This document shows, in pieces, positions 9,984 to 61,909 of a stretch of DNA of 64,000 bases. How positions within the stretch are numbered: the stretch's first letter is position 1; each line of letters opens with the position of its first letter. The position numbers were made by a program, and so were the translations under genes. The DNA is from Hymenopus coronatus (lineage: Eukaryota; Arthropoda; Insecta; Mantodea; Hymenopodidae), in assembly GCA_030762935.1 (NCBI GenBank), contig CM060897.1, forward strand, positions 108,404,176-108,468,175, read 5' to 3'. A model generated the notes under the pieces. It was not told the DNA's origin and did not search any database. It saw only the letters and a list, made by a program, of their open reading frames with translations.

Positions 9984-11868
9984 TTAATGTGAAACTTGTG
10001 ATTGATGCTTAGAGCACAGATATGTGATGTCGGGTCTTACAGTTGACAGTGAAACACGCAAATCATCCTCAAGCTTATTCAGTCTATTTCTTGCTTTGCA
10101 TTTTATTGTCACCATAGCAGAGAAGGCTTGCTCGCATAGATAGGATGTTGAAAAGGGCAAAAGTGCATTAATTGCTTTCTTCATTAGGTTAGGGTACTCC
10201 TCTCTCCGTTGAAGCCAAAAACTAGCCACCGACGCCTCACTCTTGGTGAACTTACCTTTGAGTGTGGAATCAGCGCAAAGATCAATAAATTCATCTCGTT
10301 CGCAAGCAGTGAAATCTATTTCCTCTGCACTATCTACGAAATCAAATGGTGAGACAATCCAGTCGAGATTAGTAGTGGAAATAGTTGGAAAGTACGCATC
10401 TATTGCATCTTGCAATCTTGATAAGTGATCACAGATGCGGTCTTTCAGTTTACCCAGATCTATATCTCCTGCCACATTAAGAAGAGATGGAAAGTTCGAC
10501 AAATCTCCTTTTTGAGCTGCAGACTTCCAAGAACTAAGTTTTCTTTTAAAACCTTTCATTTTATTGGTTGAGGAGATTATTGTTTCATGTTGACCTTGCA
10601 TCGAAACATTCAGTTCATTCAGCTCATGAAAAATATATGCCAGATACGACAGTTCAAAACACCAAGAATCACTTAGTAAGAGGTCGTGAAATGTGTCTTG
10701 ATTTTCATCCTTAAAAAAAGTTTTAGCTGTTCTTTAAGTTCGAGAAACCGGTTCAATACACGACCCCGCGACAACCACCTTACTTCTGTGTGAAGTAACA
10801 AAGAGGTATGACCTGCATCCGTTGCGCGACATAACTGTTCAAAAATTCTGCACTTTAAAGGTCGAGACTTCATATAGTTCACCATTTTCACAACTTGGTT
10901 AAACGCTTTAGCAAAATCTTCATTACACGCTTTCACGACTAATGCCTCTCTATGCAGAAAACAGTGAGTTATAATAATGGATGGATTTTCATTGAGAGCT
11001 CTGGCAGTAAAACCTTTAATTTTCCCAGACATAGATGGTGCACCATCTGTACATATACCACAACAGTCTTTCCATGAAAGATCATGGTCATTGAGATAGG
11101 AATTAATAGAAACGAAAATATCATGGCCTGTGGTTGTAGTCTCCAGCGGTCTACAGAACAGAAACTGTTCACTAATATCTTTTTCATCAATATATCTGAT
11201 AAAACCAAGGAGTTGCGGTTTGTCACCAATATCGAGACTCTCATCTACTTGCAAAGCAAATGTTCTATAAATTTTTATTTTCTCCGTGACTTGTTCGTTG
11301 ATATTGCATGACATTTCAGATATCCTGCGGCTGATTGTGTTGTTGGACAGAGGAACTTTCGAAATTTGATTAGCTGCTCCTTCGCCATGCAGGGCCAATG
11401 ATTTCCTCTCCAAGAGTATGAGGTTTCTTTTTTTTTAGCTATCAGTTCTGCTACTTTAAATGAGGCTTCAAGAGCAGTATTACCTATGGTCATTCTCTTT
11501 ACCATTCGCACAGCTGTTTTCTTCTCCCCTTCTAATATATGTGAAAAATACATTACACTTTTCTGTGACACACTAGGATGCTTTGTTGTAAGATGCCGCT
11601 TCAGTTTGCTAGGTACCATGGCCTCGTTGCTAAGTGTTTCGCCACAAACTAAACACACAGATATAGGGTTTTCCTCATTGTTATTCCACTTAAATCCATA
11701 CGCTAAGTAACTGTCCTGGTATGTTCTTTTCTTTCGTTTGTCTTCTTTATGTGGTGAATTCGACGGTCCGGGAGAAAGTGTAAGATTTGGCTTCTTAAAG
11801 CAAGCAGTAGGAGCCGACTGTTCACTTTCACTGTCCTGGCGTTTACGTTTAACAATGAACTTATCCAT
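9984..11868 (-). pseudogene. hAT transposase (ZBED/SCAND3-like), frameshifted
   Basis: The reading starts at 11868 (MDKFIVKRKRQ). Residues 72-97 form a BED zinc finger of C-x2-C-x16-H-x4-H type. The RNase-H-like core follows at 11413-10673, with VDESLDIGDKPQ (first acidic residue) and CTDGAPSMSG (second). The C-terminal hAT dimerisation region CEQAFSAM lies at 10601-9984. The three segments are in three different frames. I place a break at an A-run near 11431, a small deletion near 11390 and a shift at a T-run near 10715. Length and motif order otherwise fit a typical ~600-residue ZBED-type transposase, which would cut and paste its own element in the nucleus. This copy cannot make an active enzyme. 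Confidence 0.88.
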
Positions 11869-12225
11869 AGCTAAACACTGTGAATCAACGCGAGGAAGAC
11901 AACTGAAATTGCCAAGTGGCGTACACTTTTATATATTCATCTGTCGAAGTCTCGGGAATGTTCGTGAGGAAGCGAGTAGTCTCGGGAATGTTCGGCAGGG
12001 TATAGCTGCAATGCCATCTGTGGGATACTAGTATAACTGAATTATTGAAATGAATCGACCACTATCACCATTTGCGGTACATGAGAGTAATTGATTTGAC
12101 TTATTTTATTTCAAGACCTTACAAGACTTAAGGCTTCAGTAGAAGGTATTCTTTTTTTATTTATCTCAATATCTCGCGGCACCCCTTAGCCAATCACACG
12201 GCACCCTAGGGTGCTGGGGCACACC

Positions 12226-12420: not shown

Positions 12421-13061
12421 TGTTTCTTCTTGATTTCCCTGACGCCAAGCTAAATACTGGATTGCCTATTTAATAGTACGACAAAAGTTTCATCTTATGT
12501 CTAAAACAATAGTATAACAATGAAAATAAATAGCAATCGTGAATGTTCTGCCATCTCTCCACCGTATGAAGGCAGGTAAACTAGATGGCAACCTAATGCT
12601 ATTCTCTTGTCACATATAGAAACAAAGATACAGTTTCCTAGCACTAAGGCCTATCTGAATACGTGATGAAGCCAGATGGTAGCAAGGGATGTGATCTCTT
12701 CTTTTGTGTCAATACAGATACTCGTAATTTCTCCGGGCGCACTTCAGCGTAAGACTTATTGTGCTACGTGTATTGTTTAAGACCAACCCAAAACCCTGCA
12801 TCCCTTAAAAAGGAATACGGTCTTCTGCTTCTTTTAGTTCTATAAATATTTCCCCAAAAGCATTGTATCTCCTGTGAGCCAAGGAGCACAGGATATGTTG
12901 GGGTGTTTCAGTCCTCTTTCCTACATAATCTGCAGTCTAAGCTACCCCGTTACACCCCTATTGTGTTAAGATGCTTTTTCACAGGTGCTCGTCCTGTGAG
13001 AGAAACAGTAATTGTTCTCAGCTGAATCCTATTACATTTTAGCAGGCTTTCAGTTATTTTT
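12421..13061. other. Unassigned spacer
   Basis: No supported gene, RNA or repeat was found. Composition is moderate and open frames are short. Confidence 0.4.
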
Positions 13062-13938
13062 ACTTTCTCTATACGCGCTATGTACATATTGTATAGAGAA
13101 GGTATTGCACTCCACCAAAAAATTCGATACCGAGATTTCACCGGAAATATATGTTTTAGGGTCCCCGGTATCCGAAAAATTATTTTCAGAAAAAGGTCCG
13201 TGTGTGTGTCCGTGTGTCAGTGTGTCCGTGTGTCTGTGGACACGATAACTCAAAAACGAAAAGTCGGTAAAATACCAAACTTGGTATTTAAGTTTAGTAT
13301 CTTCCAGGGATGCGACACGAAGATTTTGAGAAAAATCCCCCTACCCCAAACTACCCTTTACATGGAACTTTTTTCGAAAAGTTTGATCTTCTCAAAAATG
13401 GCTCTAATGATTTTGATGAAAATATCACATATTAAAGATACTTAACTGACAAATAAAATGTATATTATTAATTTTCTGGGAATAGCATCTGAAGACTACT
13501 TTATTCTGCGTCAATTTTACGGAATTTTGCATAACTGTTAAATCGTAAGAGATGGATAAAAACTTACCACACAACAAATGTAGAACACTTTAAAACACAC
13601 AATTTATGTTATATACATATTTTTCGTGGGGTTGATTGTTTTTTTAGATATTCCTTGTTTTTAGTTTCAGCTATAAAGAAAAATACTTTTCTCATACAGG
13701 ACTTTGTGAACTCGTATCATACAAAGGAACATCAGTCACATAGCAATCAGCTTTTGACCATCACTTTAACCTATGGTGCTCCCTTATTTCGCTTCTACTT
13801 ACAAGAAAGCAAGTAATAAGACTATTTCTGCCAATTTTTTCTCGATTAGCAGGAAGTAAATAGAAGCATAAGCTTTTTAACAATAATTTATTGCAGAGTT
13901 GTAGAGAAAGTCATGTGAATGGAACACATAAGATTTTC
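13062..13938 (+). repeat. Family H copy, plus strand, full length
   Basis: Both ends are present. The palindromic head spans 13062-13102 (ACTTTCTCTATACGCGCTAT ... GTATAGAGAAGG), a TGTGTCCG tract lies at 13198-13235, and the end is ATGTGAATGGAACACATAAG plus Ts. It is one of the better preserved copies. Confidence 0.9.
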
Positions 13939-16983: not shown

Positions 16984-17769
16984 TACTTTCGCTACACGTA
17001 CTATGTACATAGTGTATAGAGAAGGAATTGTATTCCACTCAAAATGTGATACCGATATTTCACCGCAAATATACGTTTTGAGACCTCTGATATCAAAAAA
17101 GTGTTTTTACTAAAAGGTCAGTGTATATCTGTGGACAACATAGCTCTAAAACAAAAACTCCGATAAATGCCAAACTTGGTATTTAAATTTAGTATCTCCC
17201 AAGGATGGGACCGAAGATTTTCAAGAAAAGCCCCACCTCAAACTACCCTTTATATAGAAAAATTTTCGGAAATTTTGATTTTCTCAAAAATGGTTGTATT
17301 AATTGTGATAAAAACATCGTATATAATAGATATTTACATGATAAATAAAATGGTTATCTTGAATTTTCTTAAAATAGCTTATAAAGACCTCTTTATTTTG
17401 GATTGAATTTTGCTGTTTTGAATAACTGGTAAATCGTAAGAGATAGGCGAAAACTTATTACACAAAAAATGTAGATATCACAAAAACATAATTAGGTATG
17501 TCATATAAGCTTTTTTTTTTTCATAGAGCTAATTGTTTCTGATATATTCCATTGTATTGGTTTCAGCTTTAAAATAACTACATTTCTCTCACATTTGTCA
17601 ACTCCTGGTTGTACAAACAAAGGAATTTCTGTTTAGCCTAGTATAATAAGACCATATATGTTAAGTTTGTTTGGAGTAGCATAAGTAGATAGAAGAATAA
17701 GCTTTTCAACACAGCTTTATTACAGAGATGTACAGATAATCATGTAAATGGAAGTATCAGATTTTGCTT
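16984..17769 (+). repeat. Family H copy, plus strand
   Basis: The head ACTTTCGCTACACGTACTAT ... GTATAGAGAAGG keeps the palindrome. The TG tract is almost absent. The tail CATGTAAATGGAAGTATCAG is somewhat diverged, and the A/T-run region near 17510 is expanded. Confidence 0.85.
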
Positions 17770-19320: not shown

Positions 19321-19353
19321 GAATATACAGAGTCTCAACGAAACGATATTTTT

Positions 19354-20226
19354 ACTTCCTCTAGCACGTATGTACAATTTCGATAGAAAAAGCATTGTAT
19401 TGCACCCAAAAATTCGATACCGAGATTTCACCGGAAATACGTGTTTTAGGGTCCTCTGAATAAAAATAAAACAATTTTAGAGAAACGTCCGTGTGTATCA
19501 GCGTGTGTATGCTATAACACGAAAAGTCCGTTAAATACCAAACTTGGTATTTAAGTTCAGTATCTTCCAAGGATGCGACACAAAGATTTTCAGGAAAATA
19601 TCCCACCCCCAATTACCATATATGGAACACTTTTCGAAAACAGATTTTTTTTTCAAAAATGGCTTTAACGATTTTGATTAAAATACCATATACTTAATAG
19701 TATAATTTTATGACATACAAAGTATATATCTTGAATTTTCTGAGAAGAGTCCCTGAAGACCTCTTCATTCTGGATATCTTTCTTAAAACTGGTAAACCGT
19801 AAGAGATAGACAAATAGTTACTGCAATTTAGTAGTACTTAGTATACAAAAGTGTAGATCTCTTAAAATACACAATTTATGTCATACACATTTTCGTTGTA
19901 GTTTCAGTTTTAAAATACTTGAACTTTTCACAATCGAGAAATCAACTTTGTTTCATTTTTTTCTTTTATTCTCGGGAATACAAAAGAAATTCGAATTTCA
20001 TATGATTCACATGCGAAAGCTTTTAAAAGATTTGACTATCGCTTAAGCCTAGTATATTGCCTTATTTCCGTTCTACTTACAATGAAGCCAGTAATAAGAC
20101 CAATGCTCCTAATGTTTCTCTCGAATAGAATGATGTAGATAAAAGAATAATATTTTGTAAGGAAAGTTTGTTTATGGAAGAGCTAGAGAAAGTCATATGA
20201 ATGTATGGAACACATTAGATATTTCA
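19354..20226 (+). repeat. Family H copy, plus strand
   Basis: ACTTCCTCTAGCACGTATGT starts the copy. CCCAAAAATTCGATACCGAG and TACCAAACTTGGTATTTAAG are well kept. The tail ATGAATGTATGGAACACATT has a 4-bp insertion (GTAT). Confidence 0.85.
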
Positions 20227-21589: not shown

Positions 21590-22680
21590 AATATACCTAC
21601 TCACGACTCACAACAGATGGCAGGCTAAGGGCAGCCCGAGGTGTGTTGGACGTGTCCCTGTTCTCGGAGAGAACTTAACCACGTACTGACGGGATTGTGG
21701 GGTTTGCAGGATGGCGGGTGAGAGATGGGGTTGTTGAGTGAAAGGAGGAGGCAGGTATTGCTCCTCAACGGTTGTCAATTATGATGCAACGGTCCTTGTG
21801 CACCGCTGGTGTATTAATTTTTCCAAAAAATGTTTTCTTTTGGGGTTTAAATTTTGAAATCCAAGCAATTTCTTGAAGGATTGTAAGGAGCTTAGCCGTA
21901 GCAGCTGTTGGAGGTGCTCCTTCGTTACCGGGGATGCCCGCAAGCCATGCGGGGAAGCCGGTATCGCCTGAAGCGGTGGTTTGTGGGATTGTAATCCCCA
22001 AGAGACCTAACGAGGGCGCTCCTATGGAATGGTAACCCTTCGTTGAATTTTGTTGCCCGACGCCTAATCTCGTCCTCCAGGTATGGTAGACCAGAGGCTT
22101 CGTGCAGGAGTCTCATACGAAATCGCCGAGGCACAGAATAGATGGCCCGTGGACTTCAGCATCGGGTACAAAGAGGCCGCAGCCCTATTGCCCCGGCACC
22201 TCAGCTCCATGATGTGCTCCCCAAAAGTGACACCCCTGTCAAGCTTCACCCCCAAGTAGATAATGGCGTTCGTCCATTTTATCCTTCGTCTGAGGTACGT
22301 GAATATAGGGAAGTTTGCGGGAAAGCGGCGCTTGGTGAAGAGAATAGCATGGCTTTTCTCCGGATTGATGGATAACTGCCAACGCTCGCACCACTCTTGG
22401 AGGAGGCGGAGGTGTCTCTGAATGGGGTTGAAGGCTCTGCGTGGGTGTTTGTACAGAATAACAGCATACTGGGCTATGTTGACTTGCCGCTCTGTTGGTA
22501 GGTCTGCCATGTAGACGCTGAAAAGCGTGAGGGATAGTACAGACCTTTCGGGGACTCCGCCTCTTATTGACCTAAGTGTTGATTTGTGTCCCGCAACTGA
22601 AACAACAAAAGATCTGTGTTTGAGGTATGAGTTTAAAAGGTGTATGATGTGTGTCGGGAGTTCCAGAAAAAAATATACCT
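21590..22680 (-). pseudogene. Jockey-like LINE reverse transcriptase fragment
   Basis: Leftward reading gives LELPTHIIHLLNSYLKHRSF, then SIRGGVPERSVLSLTLFS (RT motif with the GVP...S turn) and YMADLPTERQVNIAQYA. The catalytic YADD motif is destroyed by a short deletion: QYA runs directly into VILYKHPRRA. WCERWQLSINPEKS (primer grip region) and IIYLGVKLDRGVTF are kept. Two frame changes follow before SGLPYLEDEIRRRATKF at about 22100 and the C-terminal tail. Upstream domains are absent. Confidence 0.82.
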
Positions 22681-35689: not shown

Positions 35690-36490
35690 TAAGAAGACTA
35701 ATAAGACCTATCTGGGTCTTCTTGCAGCTCATAAAGATCCTCTAGCTTCTTCTTTGCGTTACTTCTCATCTGCCTTGCCTTCTTCTCTAATATTGCCTTC
35801 ATTAAAGCCTGCAACAGCCTCATAAAAACCAAAATGGAGCGTTTGAATTCTTATAAATATAGTTTTAGGTAGGCGAGACCATATAACATTGTGAACTAAC
35901 TCATTAGGATTATAATTTGCCCCATGGAGACATTTCTTTTAGAGTTCTGTATTGGCCAGATCCCTAAATATACTTTTTATTTCTTACATGCAAGCTGGTG
36001 GAAGATGAAAATGATTGCATTTTACGTATTTACAAAAGGCTTAGGCACCTGTCTGTCCTTTCTCAATTGATCTCAACCCATACACAAAACGCAAATTTAC
36101 ATCATACAGAGATGTTTCCTTATCATCATAATCATCATCATTACTCAATACAGTTGATTCAGAGCTCATAAAATTATGAGCACACTTCTTACAGGAAAAT
36201 GTAAGTTCTCTGGCAAGACTTGCATGATTTTTAATTGAAATAGAAATGTCAGATTGACAAACTTTACATACAGCGAATTTAGAAAGAGCAGTCTGCAATA
36301 AGGCTATATTTACAATTTCATACTTAAATTCTTCACTTTCTTCTTTTTCATATTGCTCATACACTTCCTGAGATGGTGAAAGTTTCTTCTTCGAAGAACT
36401 AGGCCTAACTTCATTCTCTTCATGGGTACATATGCCTTAGGTTTACCAACATTTTTTTGCTTTTTAAAGATGCTCTTTCTTTTTGTCATT
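35690..36490 (-). pseudogene. MULE-like transposase with a large internal deletion
   Basis: The N-terminus begins near 36489 with MTKRKSIFKKQKNVGKPKAY. After a shift, RPSSSKKKLSPSQEVYEQYE leads to LLQTALSKFAVCKVCQSDIS, SLARELTFSCKKCAHNF (paired CxxC/CxxC) and SLYDVNLRFVYGLRSIEKGQ. These match the N-terminal region of Mutator-like transposase-domain proteins common in arthropods. From about 36040 the sequence jumps to a C-terminal part: HLPPAC, IFRDLANTEL and LHGANYNPNELVHNVIWSRL PKTIFIRIQTLHFGFYEAV (35930-35800), ending GFNEGN. The DDE core between them is missing, so it is non-functional. Confidence 0.8.
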
Positions 36491-39690: not shown

Positions 39691-39732
39691 ACTTTCTCCA
39701 TACGCACTATGTACATAGTGTATAGAGAAAGT
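39691..39732. repeat. Terminal palindrome of family H
   Basis: ACTTTCTCCATACGCACTAT GTACATAGTGTATAGAGAAA GT is a 42-nt near-perfect inverted repeat around TATGTACATA. It has a 2-nt bulge (GC) in one arm and could form a long hairpin. Confidence 0.93.
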
Positions 39733-39827
39733 ATTGCACTCCACCAAAAATTCGATACCCAGATTTCACCGGAAATATATGTTTTAGGGTCCCCAATATC
39801 AAAAAAAAGCATTTTCACAAAAAGGTC

Positions 39828-39864
<37 letters not shown>

Positions 39865-40580
39865 GTGTGTCTGTGAACACGATAACTCAAAAACGAAAAG
39901 TCGGTAAAATACCAAACTTGGTATTTAAGTTTAGTATCTTCCAGGGATGCGACACGAAAATTTTGAGAAAAATCCCCCCATCCCAACTACCCTTTACATG
40001 GAACTTTTTTCGAAAATTTTGATTTTCTCAAAAATGGCTCTAACGATTTTGATTAAAATTTCGGATATTAAACATATTTACCTGACAAATGAAATGTATA
40101 TCTTGAATTTTCTTGGAATAGCCTCTGAAGAGTAGTTTATTCTGGATGAATTTTACTAAATTTTGAATGACTGCTAAACCGTAAGAGATGGACAACAACT
40201 TACTACACAAAAAATGTAGAGCACTTTAAAGCACACAATTTATGTTATATACATTTTTTTCGTGGAGTTCGTCGTTTTTGTGACATTCCTTATTTTTGGT
40301 TTCTGCTATGAAAAACGTCTACTTTTCTCATACAGGAACTTGTAAACTCCTATCCATATAAACAAAGGAACTTCATTGACATAGCAACCAGCTTTTGACT
40401 ATCACTTTAACCTGCGGTTGTCCCTTATTTCGCTTCTACTTACAAGGAAGCGAGTAATAAGACTATTTCTGCTAATCTTTTCTGATTAGCATAAAGTAAA
40501 TAGAAGTATAAGCTTTTTAAGAATTATTTGTTGCAGGGATATGGAGAAAGTCATGTGAATGGTACACATCAGATTTTTTT
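39691..40580 (+). repeat. Family H copy, plus strand, full length
   Basis: A reference-quality copy of 890 bp. The palindromic head is at 39691-39732, (TG)n at 39831-39862, CTCAAAAATGGCTCTAACGA at 40028 and the tail CATGTGAATGGTACACATCA plus seven Ts. It is close in sequence to the copies at 13062 and 40777. Confidence 0.93.
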
Positions 40581-40776
40581 TACTTGGAGAACTTAAACTA
40601 CCAATTAATTGAATCTATAAATAGGTAGACGCATGCTTTTAATAGCCAATCCCGGCTTTAAACCTTATTTTCTCGCAAACTTTTCCCAACACTTTTCCAT
40701 GCTAAAAATGTCTGTTATTTGTTTCAAGCGTTTGATACTGTCTCTCAAAAACACATTAAAGTCATATTACTTTTTT

Positions 40777-41648
40777 ACTTTCTCTATACGCACTATGTAC
40801 ATAGTGTATAGAGAAGGTATTGCACTCCACCCAAAAATTCGATACCGAGATTTCACCGGAAATATATGTTTTAGGGTCCCCAATATCCTAAAAAAAGCAT
40901 TTTCACAAAAAGGTCCGCGCGCGTGTGTGTGTCCGTATGTCCGTGTGTCTGTGAACACGATAAATCAAAATCGAAAACTCGGTAAAATACCAAACTTGGT
41001 ATTTAAGTTTAGTATCTTCCAGAATGCGACACGAAGATTTTGAGAAAAATCCCTCCACCCCAAACTACCCTTTACATGAAACTTTTTTCGAAATTTTTGA
41101 TTTTATTAAAAATGGCTCTAACAATTTTGATTAAAATATCGTATATTAAAGATATTTGCCTGGCAAATAAAATGTATATCTTAATTTTTCTGGGAATAGC
41201 CCCTGAAGACTATTTTATTCTGGACAAATTTTACGGAATTTTGCATAACTGTTAAACCGTAAAGAATGGAAATAAACTTACTGCACAAAAAATGTAGAGC
41301 ACTTTAAAACATACAATTTATGTTTTATGCATTTTTTCATGGAGTTGATCGTTTTTTAGATATTCCTTGTTTTTGGTTTCAGCTTTAAAAACATACTTTT
41401 CTTATACAGGAATTTGTCAGCTCCTGTCCATACAAACAAAGCAACTTCAGTTACATAGCAGCCAACTTTTGACTATCACTTTAACCTACGGTACTCCCTT
41501 ATTTCGCTTCTACTTACAATGAAGCCGGCAATAAGACTATTTCTGCTATTTTTTTAGATTAGCATGAAGTAAATAGAAGCATAGGCTTTTTACAATAGTT
41601 TGTTGCAGAGATGTAGAGAAAGTCATGTGAATGGAACACATCAGATTT
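40777..41648 (+). repeat. Family H copy, plus strand, full length
   Basis: The head ACTTTCTCTATACGCACTAT GTACATAGTGTATAGAGAAG is followed by CCCAAAAATTCGATACCGAG. The microsatellite is short (40918-40930). The tail is CATGTGAATGGAACACATCA. It lies 196 bp after the previous copy in the same direction. Confidence 0.92.
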
Positions 41649-43134: not shown

Positions 43135-43629
43135 GTATATTTTGCGTACTAAGTTTTGTCTATCTCTTACGGTTTACCAGTTATGCAAAAGTCCTCAAGA
43201 ATGAAGAGGGATTCACAGGTTATTCCCTTACAATTCAAGATATACAATTTATTTGCCATGTACATTGTTTAACGTACGGCTATTTTTGAGAAAATCTAAA
43301 TTCAAAAAATCTTCTATGTAAAGGGTAGTTTCGGGTAGTGGGGATTTTCTTGAAAATTGTTGTATCGCATTCTTGAAAGATACTGAACTTAAAAACCAAG
43401 TTTAGTTTTTAACGGATTCTTTGTTTTTGAGTTATGATGTTCACAGATACACACACAGACGGAAACACACGCACGCACACACAAACGCACACATACACAC
43501 ACACAAAAAAGTCTGTTTGGACTCAGAAGACCTCAAAATATGTGTTTACGGTGCAGTCATTACAGGATGGAATACAGTACCTTCTCTACCTACTATGACC
43601 ATAGCAAGCACGTGCAGAGAAAGTATAAA
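42869..43629 (-). repeat. Family H copy, minus strand
   Basis: TCTGGTGTGTTCCACTCTTA TGAC begins this reverse copy. GGTTTACCAGTTATGCAAAA and GAGTTATGATGTTCACAG follow. Its head is diverged (CTACTATGACCATAGCA ... GCAGAGAAAGTA). An (AT)n expansion of ~45 bp at 43086-43132 and a CACACA tract at 43449-43505 lie inside. Confidence 0.85.
43086..43132. repeat. (AT)n microsatellite inside family H
   Basis: An uninterrupted TA/AT run of about 22 units at a position where other copies have none. Confidence 0.95.
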
Positions 43630-47228: not shown

Positions 47229-47814
47229 TTAAAAAAAATCTGATGTGTTCCATTCACATGACTTTCTCTACATCTCGGCAAAAAAATATTGCTAAAAAGC
47301 TTATGCTTCAATTTACTTCATTCTAATCGAGAAAAAATTAGAAGAAATAGTCTTATTACTTGTTCCTTTGTAAGTAGAAGCGGAATAAGGGCGTACCATA
47401 GGTTAAATCGACAGTCAAAGGCTGATTGCTATGTGGCTGAAGTTCCTTTGTTTGTATGGATAGGAGTTGACAAATTCCTGTATGAGAAAAGTATAAGTTT
47501 TTCAAAGCTGAAACAAAACACAAGGAATATCTTTATTACGATAAATTCCAGGAACAAATGTACATAACATCAATTGTGTGTTTTAATGTGCTCTACATTT
47601 TTACGTGGTAACTTTTTGTTCATCTCTTATGGTTTAGCAGTTATGCAAAATTCCGTAAAATTCATCCAGAATAAAGTGATCTTCAGAGGCTATTCCCAGG
47701 AAATTCAAAATATACATTTTATTTGTCAGGTAAGTGTCTTTAATATACGACATTTTAATCAAAATCGTTAGAGCCATTTTTGAGAAAATCAAAATTTTCG
47801 AAATTTTTTCCATG
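47229..47814 (-). repeat. Family H copy, left part, split by a probable solo LTR
   Basis: TCTGATGTGTTCCATTCACA TGACTTTCTCTACATC starts a well-kept reverse copy. It runs to GAAATTTTTTCCATG, where homology stops. The missing remainder resumes at 49035. Confidence 0.9.
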
Positions 47815-49034
47815 TGGGGCGGAATAAAGCTGTCACCGTGTGTTGGTGTTATGGTGAGGGTGTCAGGGCTGCTGTGCTGGTCTTGGTGTGTTATTTATTT
47901 AAACCTTGTTTGCAGGTTTAAATTTGCCGCTGTATGTTAAGTTGGTAGCTCTTGCTGTTGGCGAAACTGGTATTAACTGTTTGCGCCAGACTTTATTGTT
48001 GAAGTAGTTGCAAGCTTATTATCGGCGGCGAATTAACTTATTTATACACAGCTGAACCACGTTTTGCGTTAAATGTTTGCTATCCTCAGTCGGTGAACAA
48101 GAGAATCTTAACCTCCTTGCTTGGGTGGTAGGATTTGATACAGTAGAGAATTAATTTAAAAGATTTCTTTTTAATTATAAACGTTTATTTCGTAAATCGT
48201 TGAAACAATGTAGTGAATTAAAGCAGGCTATTTAAACTGATCTCTTTTTGAGAAAACTGTGCCAAAAGTATACTTTGTAATCTGTACTCTTAATAAATCT
48301 CTTGTTAATAATCATTAAAATACAATATTTCACACTAAATAGCTGTATTAGAGATCTCTATTTACGAGATTAGCTCTTGGCGTCTGTATCCCTGTCTTCT
48401 ATCTTGTTGACTGCGTCCCGGAAGCTTTTAATGTTTTCACATATATCTAAAAGTTGAAGATCAATGTTTTATAACATTGTAATCTGTCCGTCACCATGAG
48501 AACGACAGGTTTCCTTCGTCCACATTTCGTGAAATACGTATTCACAATACATTTTTATACATTCATAATAATTAAAATTAATGCATTTGTACAGTTTACA
48601 TGAAAATGTTCTTTTAAGTAGCTAACATTTATAAATCAGTTATTAGTTTAACTCTGTTCTTATGCATTGTTACCGGTATAAATAATTTATAGCATCCGGT
48701 ATCTCGTTCGCTTTTATTATTCTTCTTTTCTCATATTACAACTTTAATTATGTTTTATTATTAATATGCTTTTCTAAACATCAATTCTTAGCTATACATT
48801 ATAATGCATTGGATTCGTTACATAACCTTGGTTATGTTATTTTCGTAAAAGCATGCCATTTTAGGCTAATTTCGTGCGTATCGTGAGGCGATGACGTCAC
48901 GCTGCCATTTCTATACGTACAGTTCTTTGGCTTACATTGCAAAACAATATGTTTTATTATTCTACAACATTATTTTAGGGCAGTATTGTTTCATTTTCTC
49001 ATGACTTGATTTATTAACATTAAATCCTGCGTCA
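47815..49034. mobile_element. Probable solo LTR, 1220 bp, with CATG target duplication
   Basis: The insert begins TGGGGCGGAATAAAGC and ends CTGCGTCA, giving TG...CA ends. It is flanked by CATG at 47811-47814 and 49035-49038. It has no frame of note. It contains TATTTATTTAAACC and AATAAA-like signals, and no second terminal repeat. The form fits an LTR left after recombination between two LTRs. Confidence 0.6.
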
Positions 49035-49344
49035 CATGTAAAGGGTAGTTTGGGGTGGGGGGATTTTCTCAAAATCTTCGTGTCGCATCCCTGGAAGATA
49101 CTAAACTTAAATACCTAGTTTGGTATTTCACCGACTTTTAGTTTTTGAGTTATCGTGTTCACAGACACACGGACACATGGACATACTGACACACGGAAAC
49201 ACACACGGACCTTTTTCCGAAAATACTTTTTTTGGATACAGGGGATCCTAAAACGTATATTTCCGGTGAAATCTCGGTATCGAATTTTTGGGTGGAGAGC
49301 AATACCTTCTCTATGCACTATGTACTTAGTACGTATAGAGAAAG
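49035..49344 (-). repeat. Family H copy, right part, after the solo LTR
   Basis: CATGTAAAGGGTAGTTTGGG G resumes exactly where the left part stopped. The copy ends with the palindrome CTATGCACTATGTACTTAGT ACGTATAGAGAAAGTA. Confidence 0.9.
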
Positions 49345-49896
49345 TAAAAAGGAGTGAAAGTAATCATTATTTATATTTCTTATGTATGAAATGAGTACAA
49401 TAACCTTAAATAAAATAACGTTTGTTTCCATTTCTTATATTAGTTATTAAAAGCTAAAATAAAATAATTGTTCCGTATTTCTATTGTTGCTATCGATATT
49501 CATACATTGGGTGTAGGCACGGTCATAATTCAGGAGGCAGTCAAGAAAGAAAGAAAAGAAAAAAACTTTCGATAAATAAACATGGTCGAATGCGTCATCT
49601 ACCATTTGAGAACTAATGTATTATAATCATAACCTGATAAAACATCCCTTCTTATAGATATATTATAAATTATTAATAGTCTATTTCGCTGAATTGTCTT
49701 ATCAAATACAACGCGTGTTTTCATCTCTTAGGACAACTCAATGAATTATCGACAAGATGAAAATACTCGTGTCATTACTTATGGAAATCACAGGTTTCAA
49801 TATTAGCTAAATTTTATAATTCTGTGAGGATTTTCAGCGTTGGTGTTATTTCTTATCTAGAATGTTCATTCAAAGACCTAAACTGCGTATAATTTT
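49345..49896. other. AT-rich spacer
   Basis: No supported feature. Confidence 0.4.
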
Positions 49897-58060: not shown

Positions 58061-58235
58061 TTATTTTCTCTACACCAATTATGTACATAGTGTATGGAGA
58101 AGGTGACCTATTGCATTCCACCCAAAAATTCGATACCGAGATTTCAACGGAAATATTTTTAGGGTCCCCTGTATAAAAAGTATTAGAAAAAGGCCCGTGT
58201 GTGTCCATGTGCCTGTGCACACGATATCTCAAAAA

Positions 58236-58289
<54 letters not shown>

Positions 58290-58967
58290 GTATTTAAGAT
58301 TAGTATTTTCCAAGGATGCGACACGAAGATTTTCAAGAAAATTCCCCCACTCTCAACTAACCTTTACATGGAAAAAATTAGAAAATTTTTATTTTCTCAA
58401 AAATGGCTCTAACGATTTTGTTTAAAATCTTTTATACTCAAAGTATTTATTTACATGACATAAATTGTATAGCTTAAATTTTCTGGGAATAGACTCTCAA
58501 AACATGTTTAATTTGAATGAATTTTGCGGATTTTTGCATAACTGGTAAACCGTAAGAGATAGACAAAAGATTACCACACAAAATATATAAAACTCGTTAA
58601 AATACACAGTCTATGTCATATTCATTTTTTTTTTTTCGTGAGGTTGACTATTTTTTTTTTTTAGATATTCCTTGTTATTAGTTTCAGGCTTTAACATACT
58701 TATAATTTTCTCATACGGGAATTTGTCAACTCCTCCATACAAACAAAGGCACACCAATCACATAGCAACCAGCTTTTAAAAACTATCAATTTAGCCTATT
58801 GTACTCCCTCATTTCCCTTCTGCTCACAAGAAAGCAAGTAATAAGACCCTTACTGCTAATTTTTTCTCGATTAGCATTAAGCAAATAGAAGAATAAGCTT
58901 TTTACCAGTATTTTATTGTTGAGATGTAGAGAAAGTCATGTGAATGGAACACATAAGATTTTTTTTT
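58061..58967 (+). repeat. Family H array, unit 1
   Basis: The head TTATTTTCTCTACACCAATT ATGTACATAG is followed by conserved blocks. A 49-nt A-run (58238-58286) replaces the usual CGAAAAGTCGGTAAAATACC segment. The tail ATGTGAATGGAACACATAAG and a run of nine Ts lead straight into unit 2. Confidence 0.9.
58238..58286. repeat. Poly(A) run inside family H
   Basis: 49 uninterrupted A residues, probably an expansion of a short A-tract (AAAAACGAAAA) present in other copies. Confidence 0.95.
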
Positions 58968-59096
58968 ACTTTCGCTTTGCGTAATATGTACATAGTGTAT
59001 AGAGAAAATATTGTATTGCACCCAAAAATTCGATCCAGAAATTTCACCGAAACCATATGTTTTTGAGTATTTTTGGAAAAGTGACTCTATGTGTAT

Positions 59097-59139
<43 letters not shown>

Positions 59140-59856
59140 TGTGTCTGGGCAGCATAGCTCAAAAACGAAAAGACTGTTAAAAACCAAACTTGGTATTTAA
59201 GTTTGGTATCTTCCAAGGATGCGACATGAATTTTTTCAAGAAAATCCCCCACCCCCAACTACCTTTTACATGGAAAATATTTCGAAAATTTTAATTTTCT
59301 CAAAAATTGCTCGCGATTAAAATCTCTTATATTTAAGGTATTTACATGAAATAAAATGTATATCTTCAAATTTCTGGGAATAGCTTCTGAAGACAGGTTT
59401 ATTCTTGATGAATTTTGCAGATTTTGCTTAACTGCTAAACCGTGCGAGATAGATAAAAACTTACCACACAGTAAATGTAGAGCTCGTTTAAACACACAAC
59501 TTATGTTAAACACATTTTTGTCATGAGGTTGACCGTTTTGAGGTATTCCTTGTTATAAGTTTCAGCTTTAAAATACTTATACTTTTCTCATATGGGAATT
59601 TGTCAACTCCTGTCCATACAAACAAACCTACCTCAATCACATAGCAACATCTTTTAAAATATTTAATTATCGATTTAGCCTATGATACTCCCTTATTTCC
59701 CTTCTACTTAACAAGGAAGCAAGTACTAAGACTATAGCTTTCTGCTATTTTTTTTTTTTTTGATTAGCATTAAGTAAATAGAAGAATAAGCGTTTAAACA
59801 ATAATTTCGTACAGAGATATAGAGAAAGTGGTGTGAATGGAACACATCAGATTTTG
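58968..59856 (+). repeat. Family H array, unit 2
   Basis: The head ACTTTCGCTTTGCGTAATAT GTACATAGTG begins directly after unit 1. A (GT)n tract runs 59099-59140 and the tail is GTGTGAATGGAACACATCAG ATTTTG. Confidence 0.92.
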
Positions 59857-60704
59857 ACTTTCTCTTACACGTACTATGCACATAATGTATAGAGAAGGTA
59901 TTGTATTGCACCCAAAAATTCGATACCGAATTTCACTGGAAGTACATGTTTTGGGTCCCCCTGAATCAAAAGAAATATATATATAAAAAGGTCTGTGTGC
60001 CTGTGTCTATGGACAGCATAACACAAAAACGAAAAGACTGTTAAATATCAAACTTGGTATTTAAGTTTGGTATCTCCCAAGGATGCGACATGGAGATTTT
60101 GAAGAAAATCCTCCCACCCCAAACTACCCTTTACATGGAAAAAATCGAAAATATTGATTTGCTCAAACATCTCTTACAATTTTGATTAAAATGCGGTATA
60201 TTAAACATATTTATATGGTAATTAAAATGTATACCTAGAATTTTCTAGGAATAGTCTCTGAAGACTACTTTATTCTGGATAAATTTTACGGCATTTTGCA
60301 TAACTGCTAAACCGTAAGAGATGGACAAAAACTTACCACCCAAAAATGTAGAGCATGTTAAAACACAATTTATGTTATATACATTTTTTCGTGGAGCTGA
60401 TCGTTTTTTAATATATTCCCTGTTTTTAGTTTCAGCTTTTAAACCATTCCTTTCTCATACAGGAATTTGTCAATTGCTGTCCATACAAAGGAACTTCAGT
60501 CACATAGCAACCAGTTTTTGACTATCACTTTAACCTATAGTACTCCCTTATTTCTCTTCTTGCAAGAAAGCAAGTAATAAAACTATTTCTGCTAGTTTTT
60601 TCTCGATCAGCATGAAGTAAATAGAAGTATAAGCTTTTTAACAATAATTTGTAGCACAGATGTAGAGAAAGTCATGTGAATGGAACACATTAGATTTTTT
60701 TTCC
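59857..60704 (+). repeat. Family H array, unit 3
   Basis: ACTTTCTCTTACACGTACTA TGCACATAATG begins directly after unit 2. The microsatellite is short and replaced by ATATATAT at 59973. The tail is CATGTGAATGGAACACATTA G plus Ts. Confidence 0.92.
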
Positions 60705-61106
60705 CCCCCTTCAATACTTGTCCCTGCAGGCCTCGAATTCCCAATATGCATTCTCGACCTGATAAGCATAACTTACAGTTCTTAGTACGCAATATACTAA
60801 TTAGTAATTATACACTGTTAGATTATTATTGTACGTACATTTTGTACATTTAAATTTGCCACCGCTCAGTACCCATATACAGAGAATAAATACATACGTA
60901 TTTAGAATTGCCGCTAACTGTGCGTTGCCCGGATCCTTGTGTATGTATTCCTCCTCGCTACTTATGTCCTCCTAATACTTAAAAGCTGCTGGTTGCCAGA
61001 AGAGGTGGCAAACAAGAACGACGAGTTAAGCGACCTGATGTGATTCTAAAAAGAAATTTGTGTTGCATTAACATGAATTTCTCTACTCACCTATACATAA
61101 ATTGTT
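60705..61106. other. Unassigned spacer
   Basis: Nothing recognisable. Confidence 0.4.
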
Positions 61107-61909
61107 ACTTTCTCTACACGTACTATGTACATAATGTATAGAGAAGGTATTGTATTACACCCAAAAATTCGAATCCAAAAGAAAGCATTTTTAAAAAAAA
61201 TGTCCGTGTGTGTCTGTCTGTCTGTCTGAGAATGTGTGTGTATGTATGTGTGTCTGTGGGCACTATAGCTCAAAAACGGAAAGTCCTTTAAATACCTTAC
61301 CTGGTATTTAAGTTCAGTATCTTCCAAGGGTGCGGCACGAAGATTTTTAAGAAAATTCTCCCACCCCAACTACCCTTTTCTCAAAAATGGTTCCAACGAT
61401 TTTGATTAAATACCATGTATTCAAGATATTTATTTGGCAAATAAAATGTATATCTTGAATTTTCTGGGAATAGCCTCCAAAGACCTCTTTATTCTGAAAG
61501 AATTTTGCTGAATTTTGTGTAACTGTTAAACCGTAAGAGATAGACAGAATCTTACTATACCATAAATGTAGACCACGTTAAAACACACAATTTGTCACAT
61601 ACTTTTTTTTCCGTGAAATTGGCCATTTCTGAGATATTCCTTGTTATTTGTTTCAGATTAAAAATAATTTTCTCACGCGGAAGGTTATAAATCGGTCCTG
61701 CAAAGAAACAGATTTCAACCATATGGCAACCAGCTTTTAAAGATTTGACATCGTTTTACCCCAGCGTATTGCTAGGAAGCAAGGAATTAAGACAATTTCT
61801 GTTTAAGTTTATCTCAGTTATATAAAGTAGATGGAAGAATATGCTTCTTAAAAATAATTTGTTACAGCAATGTAGAGAAAGTCATGTGAATGGAACACAA
61901 TTTTTTTTC
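61107..61909 (+). repeat. Family H copy, plus strand
   Basis: The head ACTTTCTCTACACGTACTAT GTACATAATGTATAGAGAAG is well kept. The GATTTCACCGGAAATATATG segment is deleted after 61170. A TCTG/TGTG tract runs 61203-61258, and the tail is CATGTGAATGGAACACAA plus Ts. Confidence 0.9.

Follow-up and report, generated by a model that had tools for sequence, protein, structure and literature searches.

An abundant repeat family of the orchid mantis, very probably a Helentron-associated interspersed element, and a Helentron that appears to have the same ends

Genomic context

The window considered here is a stretch of 64,000 bp in the genome of the orchid mantis, Hymenopus coronatus (C18:108404176-108468175), and the genome searched comprises 3,126,739,099 bases in 384 contigs. 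Contigs are denoted by C numbers, and loci or records taken from the same genome by L numbers. The window holds many copies of a repeat family of about 870 bp, here called H, and a profile of 862 positions was built from 11 of the window copies and searched with nhmmer. It gave 44 matches covering 34.3% of the window (21,938/64,000 bp) and none in the reversed window used as a control, which agrees with the first-pass annotation of this DNA, where about 35 copies amounting to roughly a third of 64 kb had been proposed. Matches begin within the first five profile positions in 13 of the 44 cases and reach position 850 or beyond in 23.

The two copies that had been singled out as references in 39691-41648 were confirmed, and both are nearly full length on the forward strand: copy 1 at 39691-40573 (profile 1-862, E 9.5e-274), flanked on both sides by T tracts, and copy 2, the reference, at 40777-41645 (profile 1-862, E 6.9e-269). 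They are 87% identical by blastn and 88.8% identical in a multiple alignment. Further forward-strand copies recognised with the profile are a full-length one at 13061-13934, one with both ends at 16984-17762, a diverged one with both ends at 19353-20220 (also seen with blastn) and one with both ends almost whole at 61106-61899 (profile 1-856). On the reverse strand, the profile match at 47238-49346 is interrupted by an unrelated insert of 1.2 kb (~47818-49031); CATGT was seen by eye on either side of this insert, and a script found no common word of at least 6 letters.

No stop-to-stop frame longer than 140 aa lies on any H copy in the window, and the few frames of 136-140 aa each span less than half a copy, so H appears to have no coding capacity of its own. 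An Rfam scan of the window gave no match at gathering scores, and exact-pattern scans of viral contigs gave none. Remains of other mobile elements were seen on the reverse strand, namely broken hAT-like transposase pieces at 9984-11928 (Dimer_Tnp_hAT, E 2e-6; DUF4371, E 5e-6, below its cut-off; a third frame, 11275-11928, lay outside the scan), a reverse transcriptase fragment at 22064-22678 (RVT_1, E 1e-8) and a weak match to a Mutator-like transposase at 36041-36436 (E 2.3e-4, below cut-off).

Architecture of H

Read from the palindrome end, H consists of a T tract, the ACTTTCTCTATACGCACTATGTACATAGTGTATAGAGAAGGT imperfect palindrome of 42 nt, a conserved block, a GT/GTCY microsatellite, middle conserved blocks, AGAGAAAGT, a small hairpin within CATGTGAATGGAACACATCAG and a closing T tract, and its ends read ACTTTC...CATCAGA(T). 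The TG microsatellite claimed earlier is present, with its position in copy 1 corrected to 39830-39875 (+; Tandem Repeats Finder), and H contains the GTCY-like tract GTCCGTGTGTCTGTG. Similarly, the asymmetric inverted repeat exists, and it shows when the element is read from the palindrome end as 5' rather than from the T-rich end: ACTTTCTCT at the 5' terminus has its inverted partner in AGAGAAAGT, ~22 nt inside the 3' terminus. The 5' half of this repeat is the outer arm of the palindrome, ACTTTCTC, and its 3' half lies at 41615-41623 (+) in copy 2.

The 42-nt palindrome, at 39691-39732 (+) in copy 1 and 40777-40818 (+) in copy 2, is real but imperfect. DNA folding gave -8.6 kcal/mol (z -4.05) for copy 1 and -9.5 kcal/mol (z -4.25) for copy 2. 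The three copies folded, the two references and a third, form 18, 17 and 13 pairs, and all were more stable than shuffled sequence (z -4.3, -4.1 and -3.3). A rigid, ungapped count over 29 copies found 3 to 16 of 21 positions paired, with 8 or fewer in 7 of the 29; shuffled controls had a mean of 5.8 and a maximum of 13. The 3' hairpin expected of a HINE (Helentron-associated interspersed element) is legible in copy 2 as the 5-bp stem ATGTG-AATGGAA-CACAT (41625-41641, +), but it is weak, being no stabler than shuffled sequence in the one copy folded (z +0.41).

Insertion sites and tandem copies

T tracts stand at both ends of 21 full H copies, with 0-9 T's on the left (20 measured) and 3-11 on the right. 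Filled and empty sites were compared for 28 insertions with both ends, 26 of which had usable flanks; three pairs were informative, and the other flank matches were mostly tandem neighbours, the copy itself or too weak. At L003, where H lies inside H, the empty site reads CG-T(4-5)-GAG and the filled site CGTTTTT|ACTTTC...CAGA|TTTTTTAGAC, a gain of ~6 T's. At L008, a reverse insertion of H inside H, four to six T's in the empty site became 5 and 11, a gain of 10-12. At L007, in an unrelated repeat with three empty relatives, three to five T's became 3 and 6, a gain of ~4-6. No base other than T is duplicated at the three pairs, which speak against a fixed-length or TA target duplication. Insertion between T's without duplication, as expected earlier, would suit the T tracts and the lack of any duplicated non-T base, but the T's themselves grow in number. 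Duplication of the T tract, or T's brought in by the element, may account for this gain, and the same ambiguity is reported where mite HINEs are described (PMC4067079). As a separate observation, the H copies at window position 58062 and at L002:1501 have the same left flank, as if they lay at the same place in another repeat.

Cut-and-paste elements of the Tc1/mariner group have symmetric terminal inverted repeats and duplicate a TA target. The first bases of H, T|ACTTTC, would suit a MITE of such a DDE transposon, and Tc1 is given as the largest class of DNA transposons in published mantis annotations (PMC10415354; PMC12908712). Set against this, the ends of H are not symmetric, the 3' match lying ~22 nt inside the end, neither TA nor any other non-T duplication accompanies the three insertions, a T tract follows on the right of the full-length copies listed, and the partner with the ends of H, described below, is a Helentron. 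A MITE with terminal inverted repeats, of Tc1/mariner or another group, was rejected on end structure, target and partner, and we regard this origin of H as extremely improbable.

Copies of H also follow one another head to tail. In the window, three such copies (58062-58959, 58967-59852 and 59857-60695, together 58062-60695, +; blastn and profile) are separated by short T tracts. Over 99 records (324,535 bp; excluding L001, L041, L043 and L050, which lie within other records), the 5' part of an H in the same orientation begins within 30 bp after 6 of 58 usable H 3' ends, and an H in the opposite orientation follows 3; four of the six same-orientation junctions belong to loci taken for Helentrons. 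Four further same-orientation junctions with diverged neighbours were seen by eye in the window, at 43629, 51299, 52331 and 53444.

Such arrays could be concatemers produced in one event of continued rolling-circle replication, and the 6 followers in 58 compare with a chance expectation of ~0.2%, calculated from 8 H 5' ends per 50 kb. Neighbours within an array are slightly above mean identity, yet they are not each other's closest copies: those of the window trio are 79-80% identical, where comparisons with other copies average 77.6% and reach at most 82-83%, and the pair at L070 is 77.6% identical, where the average is 75.4% and the highest value 80%. The signal of a concatemer could be blurred by age, and we consider this origin unlikely. 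Because array neighbours are no closer than some other copies, the sequence comparison favours an origin of the arrays by separate insertions at the T-rich end.

The Helentron partner

A search of the mantis genome with PF14214 gave 112 matches. Among the 30 best (L009-L038), coding-strand reading of 17 loci showed GLPHAH, the canonical Helitron motif, in 8; judged by this motif, canonical Helitrons are also present in the genome. Twenty weaker matches (L039-L058) were sorted by eye into 14 of a second family and 6 more canonical copies. The exact motif GSPHEH occurs in 5 of 14 Helentron-like Rep pieces, and the remaining ones have variants or breaks; replacement of L by S at this place of the Rep motif is described as a mark of Helentrons (Thomas and Pritham, 2014; PMC4067079).

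The order of domains in L061 is DUF6570 (PF20209, E 3.3e-10), Rep, PIF1 (PF05970, E 2.9e-26) and Exo_endo_phos_2 (PF14529, E 1.7e-8), the last being a C-terminal match of AP endonuclease type downstream of the helicase. The Rep piece of L061 matches PF14214 at E 0.002, below the Pfam cut-off. Pfam gave no endonuclease match in the short pieces L059:6958-7266 and L061:7425-7652, and a PDB sequence search with the Helentron endonuclease piece returned nothing. Both L059 and L061 showed broken reading frames. Judged by its domain order, S-type Rep motif, PIF1 helicase and endonuclease, the partner is a Helentron. No DDE or RT domain was found in the 12 Helentron pieces scanned; such a domain in the partner and a fixed-length target duplication, sought at the three filled/empty pairs, had been named as refuting a rolling-circle origin, and neither was seen. 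The 5' coding region of L059 also contains ~24 copies of a 63-bp repeat (L059:669-2155), where L061 has about three.

The canonical Helitrons of this genome offer another possible source, under which H would be a non-autonomous canonical Helitron with 5'-TC and CTRR-3' ends inserted between A and T, and their motif was indeed read in 8 of 17 of the best loci. The ends of H do not read TC...CTRR in either orientation, its target is a T tract, and the Rep of the partner that shares its ends has the S-type motif, accompanied by an endonuclease. With ACTTTC...CATCAGA ends in T tracts and a Helentron partner, a canonical Helitron was rejected, and its likelihood is in our view negligible.

Shared termini and composite elements

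The 3' regions of ten Helentrons were compared. Those of L074 and L079 finish in GTAGAGAAAGTTATGTGAATGTAACA(C/T)ATC followed by a T tract, which is the 3' end of H, and this type of end was also seen in L075 in complete and in L080 in shortened form. Homology is lost before the end of the element in L073, L078 and L082, and no such end was seen in L076, L077 and L081. An end placed where the homology between L059 and L061 stops (7908 and 8349, respectively) was rejected, as only the homology of L059 ceases there, the true end being farther along.

For a test of the 3' end, 266 bp of the L074 3' region were compared with the genome, and the best 40 of 1025 candidates were scored. Helentron-specific sequence is covered by 20 of the 40 (the query itself included), and 16 of these 20 stop at query positions 243-249, within the T tract immediately past the H 3' terminus; three stop earlier, at 130, 188 and 225, and one is the query. 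The other 20 scored matches are short, with 19 spanning the terminal stretch (seven of them identical, 40/40) and one spanning query positions 146-226. In 50 kb of random sequence, a loosely matched 24-base core of the H 3' end turned up 11 times, as is to be expected of so abundant a family, and the argument for a common 3' end therefore rests on the exact stop of homology and not on the presence of the core. By this stop, the last ~40 bases of the Helentron are the 3' end of H. About nine of the 19 short matches continue into the flank of L074 (to query positions 252-266), which by eye is antisense H; repeated hits in one A/T tract inside H, as a favoured target, are suggested by the sequence.

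On the 5' side, the start of the Helentron body can be recognised at 15 loci (L060, L061, L064, L065, L066, L069, L071 and L113-L120); L062, L063, L067, L068, L070 and L072 show no body start and were left out of the count. An H segment in the same orientation lies at most 500 bp upstream of the body at 13 of the 15 loci, the exceptions being L113, whose H segment is inverted, and the diverged copy L065, which has none. At 11 of the 15, the H segment falls within the stretch that is homologous between copies, which argues that the adjacency is not due to chance. The homologous copies form three groups. L064 (C21), L069 (C17) and L116 (C3) align over 1.2-1.3 kb across two overlapping H segments into the body at 86-88%, with L118 sharing part of this. 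L061 (C11), L114 (C10), L115 (C12) and L120 (C13) align over 1.2-1.3 kb at 73-84%, through H to ~859, with L066 sharing the last part. L071 and L117 match each other from the H 5' terminus onwards (78%). Other copies do not share, at the corresponding place, the H segment of L060 or that of L119. The 5' region of the L061/L114/L115/L120 subfamily also includes a degenerate H 3' end, as if copied through.

The H 5' terminus (profile position 1-2) was seen in L060, L061, L069, L071, L117 and L119; at some other loci the stretch retrieved starts inside H. Two elements have both H ends, one of 9.06 kb at C17:12477227-12468168 (L069 together with L079) and the other L061, at C11:16906364-16915232. 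The autonomous Rep/helicase partner with the same two ends that the first-pass annotation had proposed to look for was therefore found in the same genome, as a Helentron of autonomous type. Positions ~600-820 of H are absent from the 3' region of the Helentron proper and are confined to the upstream H segments of 6 of 13 copies, which argues against H being a simple deletion derivative of the Helentron; this derivation is unsupported, the Helentron 3' region matching only the last ~40 nt of H.

Genomic share and age

The share of H in the genome was estimated from a random sample of twenty 2-kb stretches over 14 contigs, extended by ten 1-kb stretches to 50 kb. In the first 40,000 bp, the profile assigned 9,996 bp to H, with a match in 13 of the 20 stretches, and the same 40 kb reversed gave no H match. 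In the full 50,000 bp, H accounts for 12,847 bp, or 25.7% (bootstrap 95% interval 16.5-35.5%), at 18 of 30 loci. Fifteen 3' ends and eight 5' ends were counted in the 50 kb, which scale to ~0.94 and 0.5 million per genome. A comparison of copy 2 with the genome gave 8731 candidate places, with scores computed for the best 40. Taking the random sample as representative, H would make up about a quarter of the 3.13-Gb genome.

Kimura two-parameter (K2P) distances to the profile consensus have a mean of 0.21 and a range of 0.04-0.41 over 36 matches, so H is mostly old with some younger copies; the closest pair among 29 copies is 96.4% identical. After H was masked in the random and window set, no other family recurred more than three times except the L087 repeat (depth 22), and 10% of the random bases still matched something; this masked comparison was made with blastn, whose sensitivity is below that of the H profile, and it would miss a superfamily of many small families.

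A large rolling-circle share is not without precedent, as Helitrons are given as 28% of the house fly genome (PMC6327564) and 7-20% of grasshopper repeatomes (PMC7486953). For the orchid mantis, with 20 autosomes and an X that is the largest chromosome (PMC12908712), Huang et al. put DNA transposons at 19.39%, the largest subclass being TcMar-Tc1, and the word "Helitron" is absent from the main text of that paper (PMC10415354). A later paper places Tc1 first and adds an ancient Helitron burst (PMC12908712). The point estimate for H, 25.7%, exceeds the 19.39% of the class that contains Tc1, though the interval for H includes 19%. Part of H may have been filed as Tc1 or unclassified, or may belong to the reported Helitron burst.

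Classification and mechanism

A Helentron with the same ends, together with insertion into T tracts, places H among the HINEs, and we are nearly certain that it is a non-autonomous rolling-circle transposon of this kind. The Helentron-type reading proposed at first pass is supported by the presence, in the same genome, of a Helentron with both H ends. H is a new family of the known HINE kind, and it stands out by its genomic share and by the composite 5' ends of H and Helentron; a description of it was not found among the literature matches listed. From the sequence evidence, the Helentron with the same two ends is likely to be the source of H movement.

This Helentron encodes Rep, a PIF1 helicase and an AP-type endonuclease, and it has the ends of H, with the ACTTTCTC palindrome 5' and AGAGAAAGT plus the hairpin 3'. 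Its protein would recognise both H ends and nick one strand, and a single-stranded copy would be peeled off, starting at the 5' palindrome and finishing at the 3' terminus, and would then be joined into a T tract. The similarity among neighbours suggests that the T tract ending each copy could serve as the next target, and arrays would then arise by separate insertions. Where a weak 3' end failed to stop copying, it could run on and yield Helentrons with a whole or partial H at their 5' end. Repeated waves of such movement may have brought H to about a quarter of the 3.1-Gb genome.

Elements with hitchhiking (GTCY)n microsatellites were reportedly described by Coates et al. in 2011, and H may be likened to them in its GTCY-like tract. 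HINE-Mo and Helentron-Mo of the mite Metaseiulus occidentalis offer a fuller comparison, as described in PMC4067079. Like H, HINE-Mo has no coding sequence, and it has palindromic (sub)terminal inverted repeats, microsatellites and a T-rich target, T's being present on either side of the element. It also has a small 3' palindrome, to which the weak 5-bp stem of H may correspond. Its partner, with the same ends, combines Rep, a PIF1 helicase and an AP endonuclease. Going by that description, the repeats of HINE-Mo are 12-15 bp long, whereas the 5' palindrome of H has 42 nt, and the 3' repeat of H, which is not itself palindromic, lies ~22 nt from the end, compared with 38-60 nt in HINE-Mo (PMC4067079). 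DINE-1/INE-1 of Drosophila resembles H by description in its subterminal inverted repeats, microsatellite, 3' stem-loop (weak in H), TT target and high copy number, but its repeats are said not to be palindromic themselves (PMC4067079). Furthermore, Helitron2 resembles H in having asymmetric terminal inverted repeats and a palindrome at either end, the 3' one of H being weak; it is said in the same source to be without an endonuclease, in contrast to the Helentron partner of H (PMC4067079).

Conclusion and outlook

Family H is an abundant short repeat that is tied to its probable source through both ends. In a wider interpretation, H would be the largest repeat family of the orchid mantis (0.5-0.9 million copies, ~0.8 Gb), largely filed as Tc1 or unclassified, having grown through T-tract targets of its own making and through read-through of weak ends, which gave Helentrons H as their 5' end. 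We put this forward as quite possible yet tentative, and if true, H would rank with the largest rolling-circle expansions of a single family yet recorded. Should the estimate from the random sample hold, a single HINE family makes up about a quarter of the genome, and the repeat annotation of the orchid mantis should change. Moreover, the T-tract insertions and the fusions of H with Helentrons offer natural cases for the study of how rolling-circle elements choose their targets and where they stop.
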